A stretch of 64,000 bases of DNA from Alphaproteobacteria bacterium (GTDB lineage: Bacteria; Pseudomonadota; Alphaproteobacteria; Rhodobacterales; Rhodobacteraceae): contig JAUHZO010000009.1 of assembly GCA_030425925.1 (NCBI GenBank), positions 1 through 64,000 on the forward strand, read 5' to 3'. Shown here piece after piece: positions 5,314 to 30,414 of the stretch. Under the pieces are notes generated by a model. It searched no databases. It saw only the letters and a program-made list of their open reading frames with translations, and was not told where the DNA came from. Position numbers and translations under genes: made by a program. The stretch's first letter is position 1. Every line of letters begins with the position of its first letter.

Positions 5314-6516
5314 ATGTTCACCCGCACGCTGATCCTGGGGGCCGGTGCCGCCGGCATGATGGCCGCCGCCCATTGCGGGGGCGAGTCGCTGGTGCTCGAC
5401 CATGCCAAGGCGCCGGGCGAAAAGATCCGGATCTCGGGCGGCGGGCGGTGCAATTTCACCAACCTCGAAATCGCGCCGGAGCGATTCCTGGGCGCAAACC
5501 CGCATTTCCCCAAATCCGCCCTGGCGCGCTACACGCAATGGGATTTCCTCGACCTGGTCGGGCGGTACGGGATTGCCTGGCATGAAAAGACGCTGGGGCA
5601 GCTCTTTTGCGACGGCAAGGCCACCCAGATCGTCGACATGCTGCGCCACGAGATGGAGGCGGCGGGCGCACGGCTCTGGCTGCAGACCGAGATCGGCGCG
5701 GTGCGCCACGACGGAAAGCGGTTTCGCGTCGGTGTCAAGCGCGAGGGGCAACAGATTGAGATCGAATGCGAAAACCTGATCCTTGCCACAGGCGGCAAGT
5801 CGATCCCCAAGATGGGGGCAACGGGCCTCGCCTATGACATCGCCCGGCACTTTGGCCACGAAATCACCGAAACGCGACCGGCGCTGGTGCCCTTTACCTT
5901 CGAGAAAGGACGCTTCACCAATCTTGCAGGTGTGGCCTGCAACAGCCTGATCTCGAACGCAAAGGCACGGTTCGAAGAGGCACTTCTGTTCACCCATCGC
6001 GGCCTGTCCGGACCCGCCGTGCTGCAGATCTCCAGCTATTGGCGCGAGGGCGAGGCGGTGTCGGTGAACCTCTTGCCCGGCATCCGGCTGGGCGAGACCC
6101 TGCGCGACAAGCGCAACAGCGACGGGCGCAAGGCGCTGAGCACCGAACTGGCCCGCCACCTGCCCAACCGGCTTGTCAGCTTTCTAGAGCAAGAAATTGA
6201 TCTGAAAGGCAACCTTGCCGATCTGTCGGACCGCCGCATCGACGCGCTGGATGCAAAGCTCGGCGACTGGCAGCTCAAACCCACCGGCACCGAAGGCTAC
6301 CGCACCGCCGAGGTCACGCTGGGCGGCGTGGATACGTCAGGGATCAGCTCCAAGACCATGGAATCAAAGCACATCCCCGGCCTTTATATCATCGGCGAAG
6401 CGGTGGACGTGACCGGCTGGCTGGGCGGGTACAATTTCCAGTGGGCCTGGTCCTCGGCCGTGGCCGCGGGCCGCGCCATCAGCGCCCGGCCAACGCCGCC
6501 TGCACAGAGCGGGTGA
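5314..6516 (+). CDS. HI0933/BaiN-family FAD flavoprotein
   Basis: A 400-residue flavoprotein of the HI0933 (YhiN/BaiN) family of unassigned NAD(P)/FAD oxidoreductases. Visible motifs are the N-terminal dinucleotide fold [27 protein letters not shown] near residue 40, [14 protein letters not shown] in the middle, and the C-terminal [19 protein letters not shown] that closes the FAD site. Start ATG 5314 gives the flavin fold directly at the N-terminus. It is the only plus-strand gene inside the dcw cluster and its last 38 bp overlap the 3' end of murD on the other strand. The substrate is unknown; BaiN in gut clostridia acts on bile acids, but that cannot be transferred here. Confidence 0.88.
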
Positions 6517-7885
6517 AATCCTCGCCCCGCTTCTCGAAATTGTCATACTGGTCGAAACTCGCCGCCGCCGGGGCCAGCAGGACAACCTCGCCCGGCTGCG
6601 CCTCGGCCACGGCGCGGTCCACGGCACTTTCCATGGTGGTGCAAGGTTCGGCCTCAACGCCTTGAAGCTGCAAGGCAAACCCCTCGGCCTCGCGCCCGAT
6701 CACATAGGCTTTGACAACGTTGTCAAAGCCGCGCTGCAAGCCCTCCAGCCCGCCCTCTTTCTGCAACCCGCCACAGATCCAGCGGATCCTGGGGAAGGCC
6801 TGCAACGCCTTCAGCGCCGCGTCCACGTTCGTGGCCTTGCTGTCGTTGACATAGAGCACGCCGCCCGCCTCCGCGACGATCTGCGAGCGGTGCGGCAGGC
6901 CTTCGAAACTGTGCAGCGCCGTCTCGATCTGGCGCGGCGCGATGCCAAGGCTGCGCGCTGCCGCGTAGGCTGCACAGGCGTTCTGGTGGTTATGTGCCCC
7001 GGGCAGCCCGCGCACCTCGCGCAGGTCGATCGAGGCCACCTGCCGCCCCTTGCGCCACTCGCTCAGGAAACCCTTGCGGGCAAAGACGTTCCAGCCCGGG
7101 CCCGCCAGCTTCTGTCCCGACGACACGCGCAGCACACGGTCATCCGTCGGCCCCTCGGCCAGCTGGTTGGCCAGGTAGCGGCCTTCGTCCTCGTCCACGC
7201 CGATCACGCAGCGATCCGGCCCGCCTTCGGCGAAAAGCCGCCGCTTGGCCGCGAAATAGCCGCCCAGCCCCGCGTGCCGGTCCAGGTGATCGGGCGACAG
7301 GTTGGTGAACACGCCGATATCCGGCGTCAGCGCGCGGGCCAGATCGGTCTGGTAGCTCGACAGTTCCAGCACCACCACGCCGCCCTCTCCCGGCGGGTCG
7401 ATGTCCAGGACGCCGCGCCCGATATTGCCGGCCAGCTGGCTGTCGCGTCCCGCGGCCTGCACGATGTGGTGGATCAGCGCCGAGGTGGTGGATTTCCCGT
7501 TCGACCCGGTCACCGCCACCACCCGCGGCGGCACGTCAAGACTGTCCCACGCGCCCGAGCCGAACGAGCGGAAGAAGAGCCCGATATCGTTATCCACCGG
7601 CACACCGGCCGCCCAGGCGGCGGCGATCACCGGGTTGGGCGCGGGGTAGAGATGCGGGATGCCGGGGCTGACGACCAGGCAGGCCACCTCGTCCAGGGCA
7701 CCCTGTTTCGACAGATCGACAGGGGCCAGCCCCTCCGCCTCCGCCCGGGTCCGCGCGGCGGGATTGTCATCCCAGACCACCGGCACGGCACCGCCCGCCG
7801 CCAGCGCCTTGGCGGCGGTCAGACCCGACCGGCCCAGCCCCAGAACGGCGACCTTGCGCCCGTCAAACCCCTGCACCGGTATCAT
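6479..7885 (-). CDS. murD: UDP-MurNAc-L-alanine--D-glutamate ligase
   Basis: Adds D-Glu to UDP-MurNAc-L-Ala with ATP. The 468-residue protein has the Rossmann-like N-terminus [10 protein letters not shown] and the ATP loop TGSNGKST at 126-133, with the PHRSQIVAE segment of the C-terminal domain. Start ATG 7883-7885 (MIPVQGFDG). Its 5' end overlaps the P-loop ATPase gene by 23 bp, so it is translated from the same transcript, and its 3' end overlaps the convergent flavoprotein gene. Confidence 0.97.
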
Positions 7886-8405
7886 CTGCGTCCCCCATCG
7901 CCGCCACGCGCGCCTCGATCCAGTCCGCCCGCTCGGGCACGGGCCGTTTCGGCACGATCTCCACGCGGTAGCCCAGATCGGGCAAGCGGTCGCACAGCGC
8001 GTGATATTCCGCAAGAGCCTCCTCCAGCCCGTGTTGGCGGGCGTCGTCGCGGCGGTAGATCTCGGGCCAGGGCGGCACCAGAAAGACCGTCGGGGCATAG
8101 CGCAGCCGCGTGACGACATCGGTAAAGTCCTCCGGCAGCGCCCGCCCCGTGCGCAGGAACCACACCACGGCATCCAGCGCCGAGCGGTCGTAGAAACACA
8201 GCCCCGCCCCCGCGGCGTGATCCACCGCCGCCAGTTCGAGGCAGCGCAGGGCGAAGCGCTCCGGCGTGGCATGGGGTGAAATCCCCTCGGCCACAACCCG
8301 CCGCCCGGGCTCTTCGAAAACGGGATGCCCGCGCGCCTGCAAAGCCCTCAGCAGGGTGGACTTGCCGCCTCCCGAACAGCCCGAGAGCACGTGGCGTCGA
8401 TTCAC
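7863..8405 (-). CDS. AAA_28-type P-loop ATPase (NadR/Ttd14-like)
   Basis: 180 residues with an N-terminal Walker [10 protein letters not shown] at 9-17 and later [14 protein letters not shown] and [17 protein letters not shown] segments, as in small AAA_28 ATPases related to the NadR kinase domain. The family may phosphorylate small molecules or act as a GTP/ATP switch; the substrate is unknown. It is not part of the canonical dcw cluster, yet it overlaps murD by 23 bp and the BciB-like gene by 4 bp, so it is embedded in the operon. Confidence 0.8.
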
Positions 8406-9619
8406 CGCCGCTCACCCTCCCCGGGGGTCAGGCCATACCGCGCGGCCAGTTGCCAGACATGGTCGGGGATCATGTTCTTCATCCGCGCGGGATGCGCGCG
8501 GCGCAGGTGCAGCACCGTCTCCACCGCTTTCATCTCGACCCTGGCGCGCGCGAACTCCACCCCGCGCGGGCCGGTGCGGGGCTGCAGCCAGGCCACGATG
8601 GGCCTGACCCAGTCCGGCATGCGCCGCAGCGGCAGCCCGCCGGCGGCACGCTCTGTATTGGCCACGAAGCCCCGGACCGCGGCCTCCCGCCTGCCCTTGT
8701 CGGTCAGGGGCCGCGTCACCACCCTGGCACCCAGCCGGTCCAGAACCGCCTGCCCGCGCGCGTTGCGCACGATCAACCACTGGTCGCCGTCGCCGCCCAT
8801 GTAGCCCACCGTGATATCCGCCAGCCGGTTGGTGTAGTCGACGCAGGTCTTGCAGGTCATCGGGAAGAAATCCGCCGGCAGGTCCGACAGCGGCAGCTTG
8901 AGGAACGGCACGAAGCGCGGCTTGCGCCCGTCGTCAAAGCGCAGCTCCACCCGGTAATCGGCGCGGAATTCGAGGTAGGAGATCGTCTCGGGCCGCGCAT
9001 CCAGACGCGCCAGGAACGTGTGGAACCGCGCCGTCGTGGTGTTGTCCGAACACGGCGTGCCGATCACGGTGATCTCGTCGAACCCCAGGTCGCGCTCCAG
9101 CGCCCGCAGGGCGTAGACCTGGCAGGGCACCCCGATCACCGCAAGCCTGCGATGCCCGGCAAGACGTGCCGGTTCCAGCAGCGCCAGCAAGGGCCCGAAC
9201 CCCATGCGCATGCCGCGACAGCGCGCCATGTCCGCAGGCTCGGTCACGATCACCGGCCGCGGTTGCCAGCGGTCCTGCGGATCGGCGGCCGTGGCCAGCA
9301 CCGCGTCCACCGCGCCCGCCCGCAACAGCTCCGCCGCCAGCGCCGTGGTGAGCCCCGTCCATTGCGCCCCGTCCGCCGCAGGCTCCAGCCGCGCGCGCAG
9401 CATGGCCCGCGTGACACCAAAGAACGCCTCGTCCCCCGCCCCCGCTTGCCGCCCGTGCACGCGCTGCTCCAGCGCCGGATACTCCGGCGCGATGAACTGG
9501 CAGGCCTGCCCGCAGGCCTTGCCGTCTCCCAGCCGCGACACCCCGCAATCGGTGCACAGGCCCGGGCGCGGCGCACCGCCGATCTCGGGCACCACGAAAC
9601 GCCCTGTACCACCGTCCAT
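8402..9619 (-). CDS. BciB/FrhB-type iron-sulfur flavoprotein reductase
   Basis: 405 residues of the FrhB/FdhB family (coenzyme F420 hydrogenase/dehydrogenase beta subunit). The N-terminal cluster motif has Cys at 22, 25, 36 and 40; a second one, CKTCVDYTNRLADITVGYMG, begins at 256. That motif, the WLIVRNARGQ that follows, and the C-terminal GPRGVEFARARVEMKAVETV resemble the ferredoxin-dependent 8-vinyl reductase BciB and plant HCAR more than true F420 enzymes. It may therefore act on a (bacterio)chlorophyll intermediate, but non-phototrophic homologues exist, so the substrate is open. ATG 9617-9619 has a perfect GAGGAGGTC site 7-8 bases upstream, preferred over GTG 9640. It sits between mraY and the ATPase gene. 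Confidence 0.8.
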   Translation of the reverse strand: MDGGTGRFVVPEIGGAPRPGLCTDCGVSRLGDGKACGQACQFIAPEYPALEQRVHGRQAGAGDEAFFGVTRAMLRARLEPAADGAQWTGLTTALAAELLRAGAVDAVLATAADPQDRWQPRPVIVTEPADMARCRGMRMGFGPLLALLEPARLAGHRRLAVIGVPCQVYALRALERDLGFDEITVIGTPCSDNTTTARFHTFLARLDARPETISYLEFRADYRVELRFDDGRKPRFVPFLKLPLSDLPADFFPMTCKTCVDYTNRLADITVGYMGGDGDQWLIVRNARGQAVLDRLGARVVTRPLTDKGRREAAVRGFVANTERAAGGLPLRRMPDWVRPIVAWLQPRTGPRGVEFARARVEMKAVETVLHLRRAHPARMKNMIPDHVWQLAARYGLTPGEGERR

Positions 9620-9644
9620 GGCCGACCTCCTCGAAAGCACTTTC

Positions 9645-9662
9645 TGTCAACCCTAGTTGACA
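9645..9662. promoter_or_regulatory. PpsR/CrtJ-like palindrome upstream of the BciB-like gene
   Basis: TGTCAACCCTAGTTGACA has 7-bp arms (TGTCAAC/GTTGACA) around CCTA and fits exactly the PpsR/CrtJ consensus TGTC-N10-GACA. It is centred about 35 bp upstream of the chosen ATG, where a repressor would block transcription start or early elongation. GntR, MarR or other dimeric regulators could also use such a palindrome. Confidence 0.5.
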
Positions 9663-9679
9663 GACACCCCGAAATCCAT

Positions 9680-9850
9680 CTCTTTCATCTTTCTGAAAAT
9701 ACCTCCGGGGAGCGCGAGGGGCAGCGCCCCTCGCTCCCGCACGCGCCACGGGCGCGACATCAGGGGCAAGGCGTCGCGCCGCCAGAGGCCAGAGGCCGCA
9801 TCCAGCGGCCGAGAAACCTGCGCGCGGCCCCCCGGGCCGCGCCCGATGTG
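9680..9850 (+). repeat. Intergenic repeat family A, copy 1
   Basis: The stretch begins with CTCTTTCATCTTTCT and AAATACCTCCGGGGAGCGCG, continues as a GC palindrome (GAGGGGC...GCCCCTC) and ends with GCGGCCGAGAAACC, CGCGCGGCC...GGCCGCGC and TGTGAC. The same ordered blocks recur at 19911-20073. It lies between the mraY 3' end and the BciB-like gene, opposite to their direction. Confidence 0.75.
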
Positions 9851-9856
9851 ACTGGA

Positions 9857-10939
9857 TCAGCGGACCTTGAGGGTCGCCAGGCCGATGATCGCCAGGATCA
9901 GCGAGATGATCCAGAACCGGATCACGATCTGCGGTTCGGCCCAGCCCTTCTTCTCGTAATGGTGATGGATCGGCGCCATCAGGAAGACCCGCTTGCCGGT
10001 GCGCTTGAAATAGAGCACCTGGATGATCACCGACAGCGCCTCCACCACGAAGAGCCCGCCCACGATGGCCAGCACGATCTCGTGCTTGGTCGACACCGCG
10101 ATCGCCCCCAGCGCGCCGCCCAGCGCCAGCGATCCGGTATCCCCCATGAACACCGCCGCGGGCGGCGCGTTGTACCACAGGAATCCCAAGCCCCCGCCGA
10201 CGATCCCGGCGGTAAAGATCAGGATCTCGCCGGTGCCCGGCACGTAGTGCACGTCCAGATACTCGGTAAAGTCCACCCGTCCCACCGCATAGGCGATCAC
10301 ACCCAGGGCCGAGGCCGCGATCATCACCGGCATGATCGCCAGCCCGTCCAGCCCGTCGGTCAGGTTCACTGCATTGGCCGCGCCCACGATGACGATGACC
10401 GCAAAGGGCACGAAGAACAGGCCCAGGTTCAGCAGCGCATCCTTGAACACCGGAAAGGCCAGGTGATAGGCCAGCGCGTCGGGGTGATAGGCCGCGGCCC
10501 ACCAGCCGGCAATCCCGGCAATCACGAGACCCAGCAGCAGCCGCACCCGGCCCGAGACACCCGCCGTGGACTGCTTGGTCACCTTGGCGTAATCGTCGGC
10601 AAAGCCGATCGCTGCGTAGGACATGGTCACGAACAGCACGATCCACACAAACGGGTTGTCCAGCCGGGCCCAGAGCAGGGTCGAGGTCACCAGCGCACCG
10701 ATGATCAGCAGCCCGCCCATGGTCGGCGTACCCGCCTTGACGAAATGCGTCTCGGGCCCGTCGCTGCGGATCGGCTGGCCCTTGCCCTGGCGCTTGCGCA
10801 GCACGTTGATCAGCGGCGGACCGAACAGGAAGCCGAACAGCAGCGCGGTCAGAAACGCCCCACCGGCGCGAAAGGTGATGTAGCGGAACAGGTTGAAGAC
10901 GTCGCCGCCGTCGCTCAGTTCGGTCAACCAGTACAGCAT
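9857..10939 (-). CDS. mraY: Phospho-N-acetylmuramoyl-pentapeptide transferase
   Basis: Integral membrane enzyme that moves phospho-MurNAc-pentapeptide onto undecaprenyl phosphate to form lipid I. The 360 residues carry about ten hydrophobic segments and the family's signatures: [10 protein letters not shown], the aspartates in [22 protein letters not shown], GNxx-like [20 protein letters not shown] and [13 protein letters not shown]. Start ATG 10937-10939. The gene follows murF by 6 bp. Confidence 0.97.
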
Positions 10940-30018: not shown

Positions 30019-30414
30019 ATGAGTTTCCTGATCCGCTGGCTCTTTGCCTTTCTGCTGCTGGCCGCGACCTACAATCCGACGCCCTACAATTTTGTCCGCT
30101 GGGCCGCGGCGAGTTTTGACAGCCAGCTGCCGCTGACGGTGCTGTTCGGGCTGCTGCTGTTTGTCGGCTACGTGATCTACCTGCGCGCCACGCTGCGCTC
30201 CATCGGGGCGTTCGGCATGTTGCTGGTGCTGGCGCTGGTGGGCGCGATCCTGTGGGTGCTGTGGGATCTTGGCCTGCTGGACCTGTCCGATCCGCAACTG
30301 GCCACCTGGATTGGCCTGCTGGCGCTGTCCATCGTTCTGGGGGTCGGGCTCAGCTGGTCGATCATCCGGCGCCGGCTGTCGGGCCAGGTCGACATGGACG
30401 ACGTGGACGAGTAG
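30019..30414 (+). CDS. DUF6524 family membrane protein
   Basis: 131 residues with four hydrophobic segments, start [23 protein letters not shown]-x-YNF-x-RW is characteristic of DUF6524. Acidic tail (DMDDVDE). Function unknown. ATG 30019 has GGAGGG upstream. It ends 2 bp from the convergent nitrile hydratase accessory gene. Confidence 0.75.

Follow-up and report, generated by a model that had tools for sequence, protein, structure and literature searches.

Within the dcw cluster of the 64,000-nucleotide stretch of DNA analysed here (the window), a gene of the FrhB family very probably encodes a BciB-type C8-vinyl reductase that would replace BciA and be expressed under the control of PpsR. 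This reading draws on comparative sequence data, in which mutual exclusion with BciA, co-occurrence with the reaction centre genes pufLM and a PpsR-like site before the start codon all point the same way. The gene is most likely a displaced photosynthesis gene, and not a cell-wall gene. A preliminary description had suggested a light- or oxygen-regulated pigment reductase inside the cell wall operon, and the pigment-related part of that suggestion is supported by pufLM co-occurrence, the presence of ppsR, a conserved site and the likeness of the protein to 7-hydroxymethyl chlorophyll a reductase (HCAR). The features of the locus are collected in the table.

Table. Features of the bciB locus, in window coordinates.
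Feature	Position	Strand	Remarks	Basis
bciB-type gene	8402..9619	-	405 aa	FrhB_FdhB_N/C, HCAR match, model, pufLM co-occurrence, BciA exclusion
Ribosome-binding site	9626..9630	-	GGAGG, for the ATG at 9617-9619	Sequence reading
Predicted PpsR/CrtJ-type operator	9645..9662	-	TGTCAACTAGGGTTGACA in gene direction	Sequence, matrix scores, orthologue conservation
AAA_28 ATPase gene	7863..8405	-	Directly downstream of bciB	Pfam, ORF reading
murD	6479..7885	-	dcw cluster, downstream neighbour; start approximate	ORF list, search
mraY	9857..10939	-	Upstream neighbour in the dcw cluster, 237 bp away from the bciB ATG	ORF list, search

The FrhB-family open reading frame of the preliminary description is real, and its product scores far above the Pfam cut-offs for both domains (FrhB_FdhB_N, 72.9 bits against 22; FrhB_FdhB_C, 91.2 bits against 23.3). 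Judged from the sequence before it, the start codon is most likely the ATG at 9619 with its GGAGG, rather than the GTG at 9640. The top PDB sequence match of the protein is HCAR (5dqr; query residues 17-402, E 5.1e-64, 220 bits), followed by an F420 enzyme (3.4e-16, 62.5 bits), with other F420 enzymes weaker still. The structure predicted by AlphaFold2 from 11 aligned sequences (mean pLDDT 81.5) likewise has HCAR as its best fold match (E 2.7e-30, query-normalised TM 0.84), and F420 enzymes trail at a query-normalised TM of 0.57 or less. Four NCBIfam models for frhB, FpoF or related F420 proteins were listed for the protein at 62-74 bits, under their cut-offs of 269-475. Identity as an F420 enzyme was rejected on these scores and on the lead of HCAR in both the sequence and the fold searches of the PDB.

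In a phylogenetic tree the window protein and its orthologues separate from seven FrhB paralogues of their own family. The branches leading to HCAR and the F420 proteins are very long and the placement of the outgroups is unsure, so the tree is used only for this split. The BciB comparison set comprised HCAR and a homologue from Candidatus Thiodictyon syntrophicum, in place of a biochemically proven BciB sequence. In this comparison the window protein is nearest to HCAR and to the homologue of this purple sulfur bacterium, encoded near bchI-bchD, and lies away from the FrhB paralogues of the family. The Thiodictyon gene itself is found on plasmid pTs485 (L200:5938-7182), near bchI-bchD-bchO and IS elements.

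Eight cysteines (residues 22, 25, 36, 40, 166, 190, 256 and 259) would suffice for binding two [4Fe-4S] clusters. They were followed through an alignment of 88 sequences, comprising the window protein, 80 named orthologues (the best 80 of at least 576 confirmed matches) and seven loci of the class sample; seven of the cysteines occur in all 88 sequences and Cys40 in 87. The plain pattern C-x2-C-x(8-13)-C-x3-C is present in 84 of 87 loci, and C-x2-C-x2-C is absent from all 87. Ser28 of the window protein and its 87 relatives is a cysteine in HCAR, and their Cys36, eight residues further on, is a valine there. The Thiodictyon homologue, 39% identical, has the HCAR-type pattern (C-x2-C-x2-C...C). 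This exchange relative to both proteins indicates a probable relocation of one of the ligands of the N-terminal cluster.

The genome from which the window derives encodes the machinery expected of a phototroph, for which the preliminary description had proposed a check, ppsR included. Its ppsR gene (G000:C18:32231-33547) scores 426 bits against an NCBIfam cut-off of 275.4 and lies with the photosynthesis cluster on contig C18, bciB being on contig C25. Besides pufLM, the genome encodes AcsF, BchE, BchL, BchZ, BchC, BchG, CrtA, a CrtI-family protein and pucBA. The protein beside ppsR, which we take to be PpaA/AerR, has a sub-cut-off match to a B12-binding domain, as expected for such a protein. 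A search for BciA in this genome returned none at E 1e-20.

The distribution of bciB was followed in 149 genomes of the window's own family, the Rhodobacteraceae. Thirty-eight have a match at E 1e-3, 30 of them a strong orthologue and eight a weak match only. Six of these eight were fetched and proved to hold five FrhB-type paralogues and one fragment (G141); with the weak matches of G069 and G115 left out and second weak matches of G021 and G034 added, they supplied the seven paralogues of the tree. In the same sample PF00124 occurs in 60 genomes, PpsR over its cut-off in 59 and a BciA-type protein in 25. NCBIfam gave no 8-vinyl-reductase match for two of the BciA candidates and the PDB none for one, so BciA-type proteins were recognised by their relation to SDR proteins and by motifs that we assume to be characteristic of them. 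One family genome without a PF00124 match carries a 40% identical BciA-type protein (G089:C1:203103-204041).

Among the 30 genomes with a strong orthologue, 29 carry pufLM, and the 60 phototrophs of the family divide into 29 with bciB (30 if the truncated copy of G141 is included), 24 with BciA, seven with neither and none with both; Fisher tests give p values of 4e-13 for the co-occurrence with pufLM and 7.6e-11 for the exclusion of BciA, both treating genomes as independent although relatives share ancestry. The lack of any phototroph with both proteins points to the same reaction as that of BciA, and on this rests the judgement of another reading, that a bacteriochlorophyll-pathway reductase of the BciB/HCAR superfamily acts here on a group other than the 8-vinyl group, as HCAR does on the 7-hydroxymethyl group. 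HCAR is indeed the closest solved relative, and one Fe-S ligand is placed unlike that of HCAR and of the Thiodictyon homologue. However, the exclusion speaks for BciA's own reaction, and these bacteria are not expected to contain chlorophyll b, from which the 7-hydroxymethyl pigment derives, so that a different target group appears improbable.

The seven phototrophs with neither enzyme include G141, whose bciB copy is cut by a contig end, and two genomes that are 79-82% complete. Four others (G024, G028, G081 and G106) are at least 97% complete and have pufLM and BchZ, with neither BciA nor bciB at the thresholds used. According to PMC4214422, chlorophyllide reductase (COR) is itself able to reduce the 8-vinyl group, which may explain phototrophs of this kind; by analogy with the proposal made there for Roseiflexus, COR may be the only 8-vinyl reductase of these four genomes.

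An unrelated role of the family in non-phototrophs, the alternative offered by the preliminary description, found little room in these data and was rejected. The sole family genome with a strong orthologue and without pufLM, G026, also lacks BchZ; its bciB lies on a 3,164-base contig (G026:C24; loci L006 / L109) with the end of murF and mraY, another mraY lies elsewhere in the genome, and the contig is most simply explained as contamination. In a class-wide sample of 387 genomes, bciB occurs in eight at E 1e-30 and puf in 26, with seven shared. The exception is G308 (L191), a class-level genome in a single contig, whose orthologue is 64% identical and which has neither pufLM nor BchZ; here the gene may be a relic or serve another use.

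The palindrome at 9645-9662 has the letters TGTCAACCCTAGTTGACA. They form a perfect 7+4+7 dyad, TGTCAAC-N4-GTTGACA, and a TGT-N12-ACA palindrome near the start codon. The preliminary description was right about the presence of a palindrome upstream of the gene but placed it about 35 bp from the start, whereas the distance to the ATG is 25 bp. The bare motif TGTC-N10-GACA occurs twice in the window against 0.58 expected (11 of 100 shuffles reach two) and 111 times genome-wide against 41 for a reversed control, and by itself is weak evidence for an operator. The stricter TGTMA-N8-TKACA is found in 17 places in the 4.31-Mb genome, its reversed control in none. The photosynthesis contig, 53 kb long, accounts for seven of these, including one at 30286 that falls within a predicted gene. 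Two more precede pucBA, which encodes two PF00556 proteins, another is the bciB site, and for the other seven no tie to photosynthesis genes was made. The PpsR-like sites of this genome precede crtI/crtA, a gene pair presumed to be bchF and ppaA, bchG, bchE, bchC and pucBA.

Two matrices rank the bciB site first in the window. With one built from eight sites near gene starts on the genome's own photosynthesis contig it scores 20.1 bits, the next site 11.3. The other was built from 13 PpsR ChIP-seq sites of R. sphaeroides (rows 1-13 of the 19 in Table 2 of PMC4344238; rows 14-19 were set aside because they lacked differential expression or a gene downstream of the site); here the site scores 21.4 bits, which falls among the scores of the 13 sites behind the matrix (13.1-23.9) and is 9 bits ahead of the next at 12.3. 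The full site thus exceeds chance, as the strict count (17 against 0) and the ChIP matrix indicate, and the resemblance to PpsR/CrtJ operators claimed at the outset is upheld.

The site is also conserved, as judged by scanning 300 bp ahead of the CTDC codon of each orthologue and comparing the scores with those of 3,058 control windows drawn from these loci. Of the named orthologues (the best 80 of at least 576), 52 exceed the 99.9% control quantile and 53 the 99% quantile, and 28 have no site over the 99.9% level; the palindrome, which the preliminary description had wanted compared between orthologous loci, is conserved in many of them but not in all. Family-genome loci give 19 of 28 over the 99.9% quantile, two of the 30 (L033 and L034) having been excluded as fragments. 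In a set of 43 less redundant sites, conservation lies mainly in the two half sites. A chance palindrome was rejected on this conservation, on the strict-site count against its reversed control and on both matrix rankings.

The pufLM search behind the named loci took 50 of the 80, namely all 28 without a site and 22 with one, of which 20 were searched. It found pufLM in 45 of 48 searched genomes, including 19 of 20 with the operator and 26 of 28 without it; the three that lack pufLM are all MAGs. Phototrophs thus often retain bciB without a recognisable site. In three loci (L146, L152 and L170) a spacer of 17 bases separates the downstream half, TTGACA, from GATACT or GATAGT, as would suit the use of TTGACA as a -35 box. 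For comparison, 12 BciA loci were taken from the 25 BciA genomes, and of the 11 with a sufficiently long upstream region one has a PpsR-like site over control level. That locus, L079, carries a strong site, TGTCAGTCTGAGTTGACA. No report of PpsR control of bciB was found among the papers examined, mainly open-access ones.

These data bear on a further reading, in which an F420- or FrhB-type oxidoreductase unconnected with pigments is encoded here and the palindrome is due to chance or belongs to another regulator. Pfam and NCBIfam do place the protein in the FrhB superfamily, the bare TGTC-N10-GACA is common, and in G308 the gene occurs although pufLM and BchZ are absent. Against this stand the co-occurrence with pufLM, the conservation of the full operator and the separate grouping of the seven FrhB paralogues, and the reading is accordingly very improbable indeed.

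The location of the gene was described beforehand as between mraY and murD, which is true of its order, but the AAA_28 ATPase gene separates bciB from murD. The GTG start of that gene (8403-8405) overlaps the bciB stop codon, and the two therefore probably share one transcript. The AAA_28 gene and murD could sit on a PpsR-controlled transcript. Upstream of bciB the window contains murE, murF and mraY. Among the named loci, the best 80 of at least 576 matches, mraY directly precedes bciB in 18, comprising 13 Marivita-type loci (10 of them named Marivita), two of Lutimaribacter and one each of Thalassococcus, Thetidibacter and Puniceibacterium; murD also follows in five, those of Lutimaribacter (two), Thalassococcus, Thetidibacter and Puniceibacterium. 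Two Roseivivax loci have murD and lack mraY in the flank examined, and neither gene was found in the flanks (up to 6 kb) of the remaining 60. Several genera thus have the gene in the dcw cluster, but most of the relatives sampled carry it elsewhere. The AAA_28 gene gave no tblastn match in any of these 80 loci. An opposite-strand ORF between murD and ftsW (window 5314-6516, plus strand), flavoprotein-like by eye, has an equally placed counterpart in Lutimaribacter, Thalassococcus and Thetidibacter.

Such a location raises the prospect that the enzyme is BciB, in overlap with the preferred reading, but that the dcw operon governs its expression and the operator is merely left over from an earlier state. 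The position between mraY and murD would suit this, as would two loci, of Thalassococcus and Puniceibacterium (L117 and L122), in which bciB lies between mraY and murD, the genome carries pufLM and a PpsR-like site is not recognisable. A promoter and terminator scan of 9580-9960 likewise revealed no sigma70- or terminator-like site. Yet sites of at least 19 bits are kept in all 13 Marivita-type loci (L104-L115, L135), in Lutimaribacter (L116, L131) and in Thetidibacter (L121) despite varying flanks, and orthologues outside the dcw cluster also retain an operator-like site. Expression governed by the operon is thus unlikely, if somewhat less so than a different target group. RNA folding of the gap between mraY and bciB gave a z of -2.04, with G+C-rich hairpins without clear meaning; a guessed repeat motif was absent, and 19 pattern matches in viral contigs included no relative.

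For the preferred reading, a PpsR-controlled BciB, the data directly show the gene, the operator sequence, ppsR, the association with phototrophy, the exclusion of BciA and an HCAR-like predicted fold; from these we infer the reaction and its electron donor, the binding of PpsR, the signal to which regulation responds and its direction, and how the gene came to its place. With electrons passed along two [4Fe-4S] clusters and FAD, and supplied in known BciB by reduced ferredoxin, the enzyme would reduce divinyl-chlorophyllide at its 8-vinyl group en route to bacteriochlorophyll a. BciB would in this lineage stand in for the unrelated NADPH enzyme BciA. The gene would have arrived beside mraY in an ancestor of several genera and retained its own PpsR-type site there. 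Weighing against this reading are the 28 named orthologues that have no site over the 99.9% level, the occurrence of the gene in G308, the three MAGs without pufLM, the ability of COR to carry out the 8-vinyl reduction and the failure of Synechocystis BciB to work in R. sphaeroides (both PMC4214422).

Ferredoxin docking has been modelled on residues 9-40 of Synechocystis BciB, as given in a 2026 review (PMC13297055), and the altered N-terminal ligands probably lie in the corresponding segment. The moved ligand may be linked to a different electron donor. It is conceivable, though the balance leans somewhat against it, that a distinct alphaproteobacterial BciB subtype exists, in which the N-terminal ligands were rewired (C-x2-C-x10-C-x3-C in place of C-x2-C-x2-C...C) for another donor of purple bacteria, PpsR control was gained, and about half of the phototrophic genera sampled in the family (29-30 of 60) came to use the enzyme as their standard 8-vinyl reductase. 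If the proposal is true, donor adaptation could explain why Synechocystis BciB did not function in R. sphaeroides (PMC4214422).

All known bacteriochlorophyll a phototrophs except Roseiflexus were stated in 2016 to have bciA (PMC4836224), and a 2020 review placed BciB in some purple bacteria (PMC7242693). The split is now counted within one family, where about half of the sampled phototrophs have bciB and none has both. The protein, a relative of which bears the annotation coenzyme F420 hydrogenase/dehydrogenase subunit, thereby gains a likely function, a conserved candidate member of the PpsR regulon is placed outside the photosynthesis cluster, and the identity of the electron donor becomes a testable question.

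Among known systems, the window protein shares FrhB-family membership with BciB, the ferredoxin-dependent 8-vinyl reductase (Synechocystis Slr1923, Chloroherpeton Ctha_1208), a relation stated in PMC13297055, together with eight conserved cysteines able to hold two [4Fe-4S] clusters and an occurrence in (bacterio)chlorophyll producers that lack BciA. Unlike BciB as described in the literature examined, it is encoded with a PpsR-type operator and within the dcw cluster. HCAR of Arabidopsis resembles the window protein in length and in the fold predicted for the latter, 384 positions aligning at about 35% identity, but is an enzyme of the plant chlorophyll cycle, with a different ligand spacing in its N-terminal cluster. 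BciA of R. sphaeroides, whose gene we take to be RSP_3070, is an NADPH-dependent 8-vinyl reductase for which the same reaction is proposed; it is an unrelated SDR-type protein found in phototrophs without bciB and, unlike bciB, rarely follows a PpsR site (one of the 11 scored loci). The PpsR/CrtJ regulon of R. sphaeroides has an operator like the one predicted here, and the photosynthesis-cluster and puc sites of the window's own genome precede counterparts of targets listed in Table 2 of PMC4344238. None of the entries examined in that table names an 8-vinyl reductase gene, and RSP_3070 does not appear in the text of the paper, whereas here such a gene is probably linked to the regulon.
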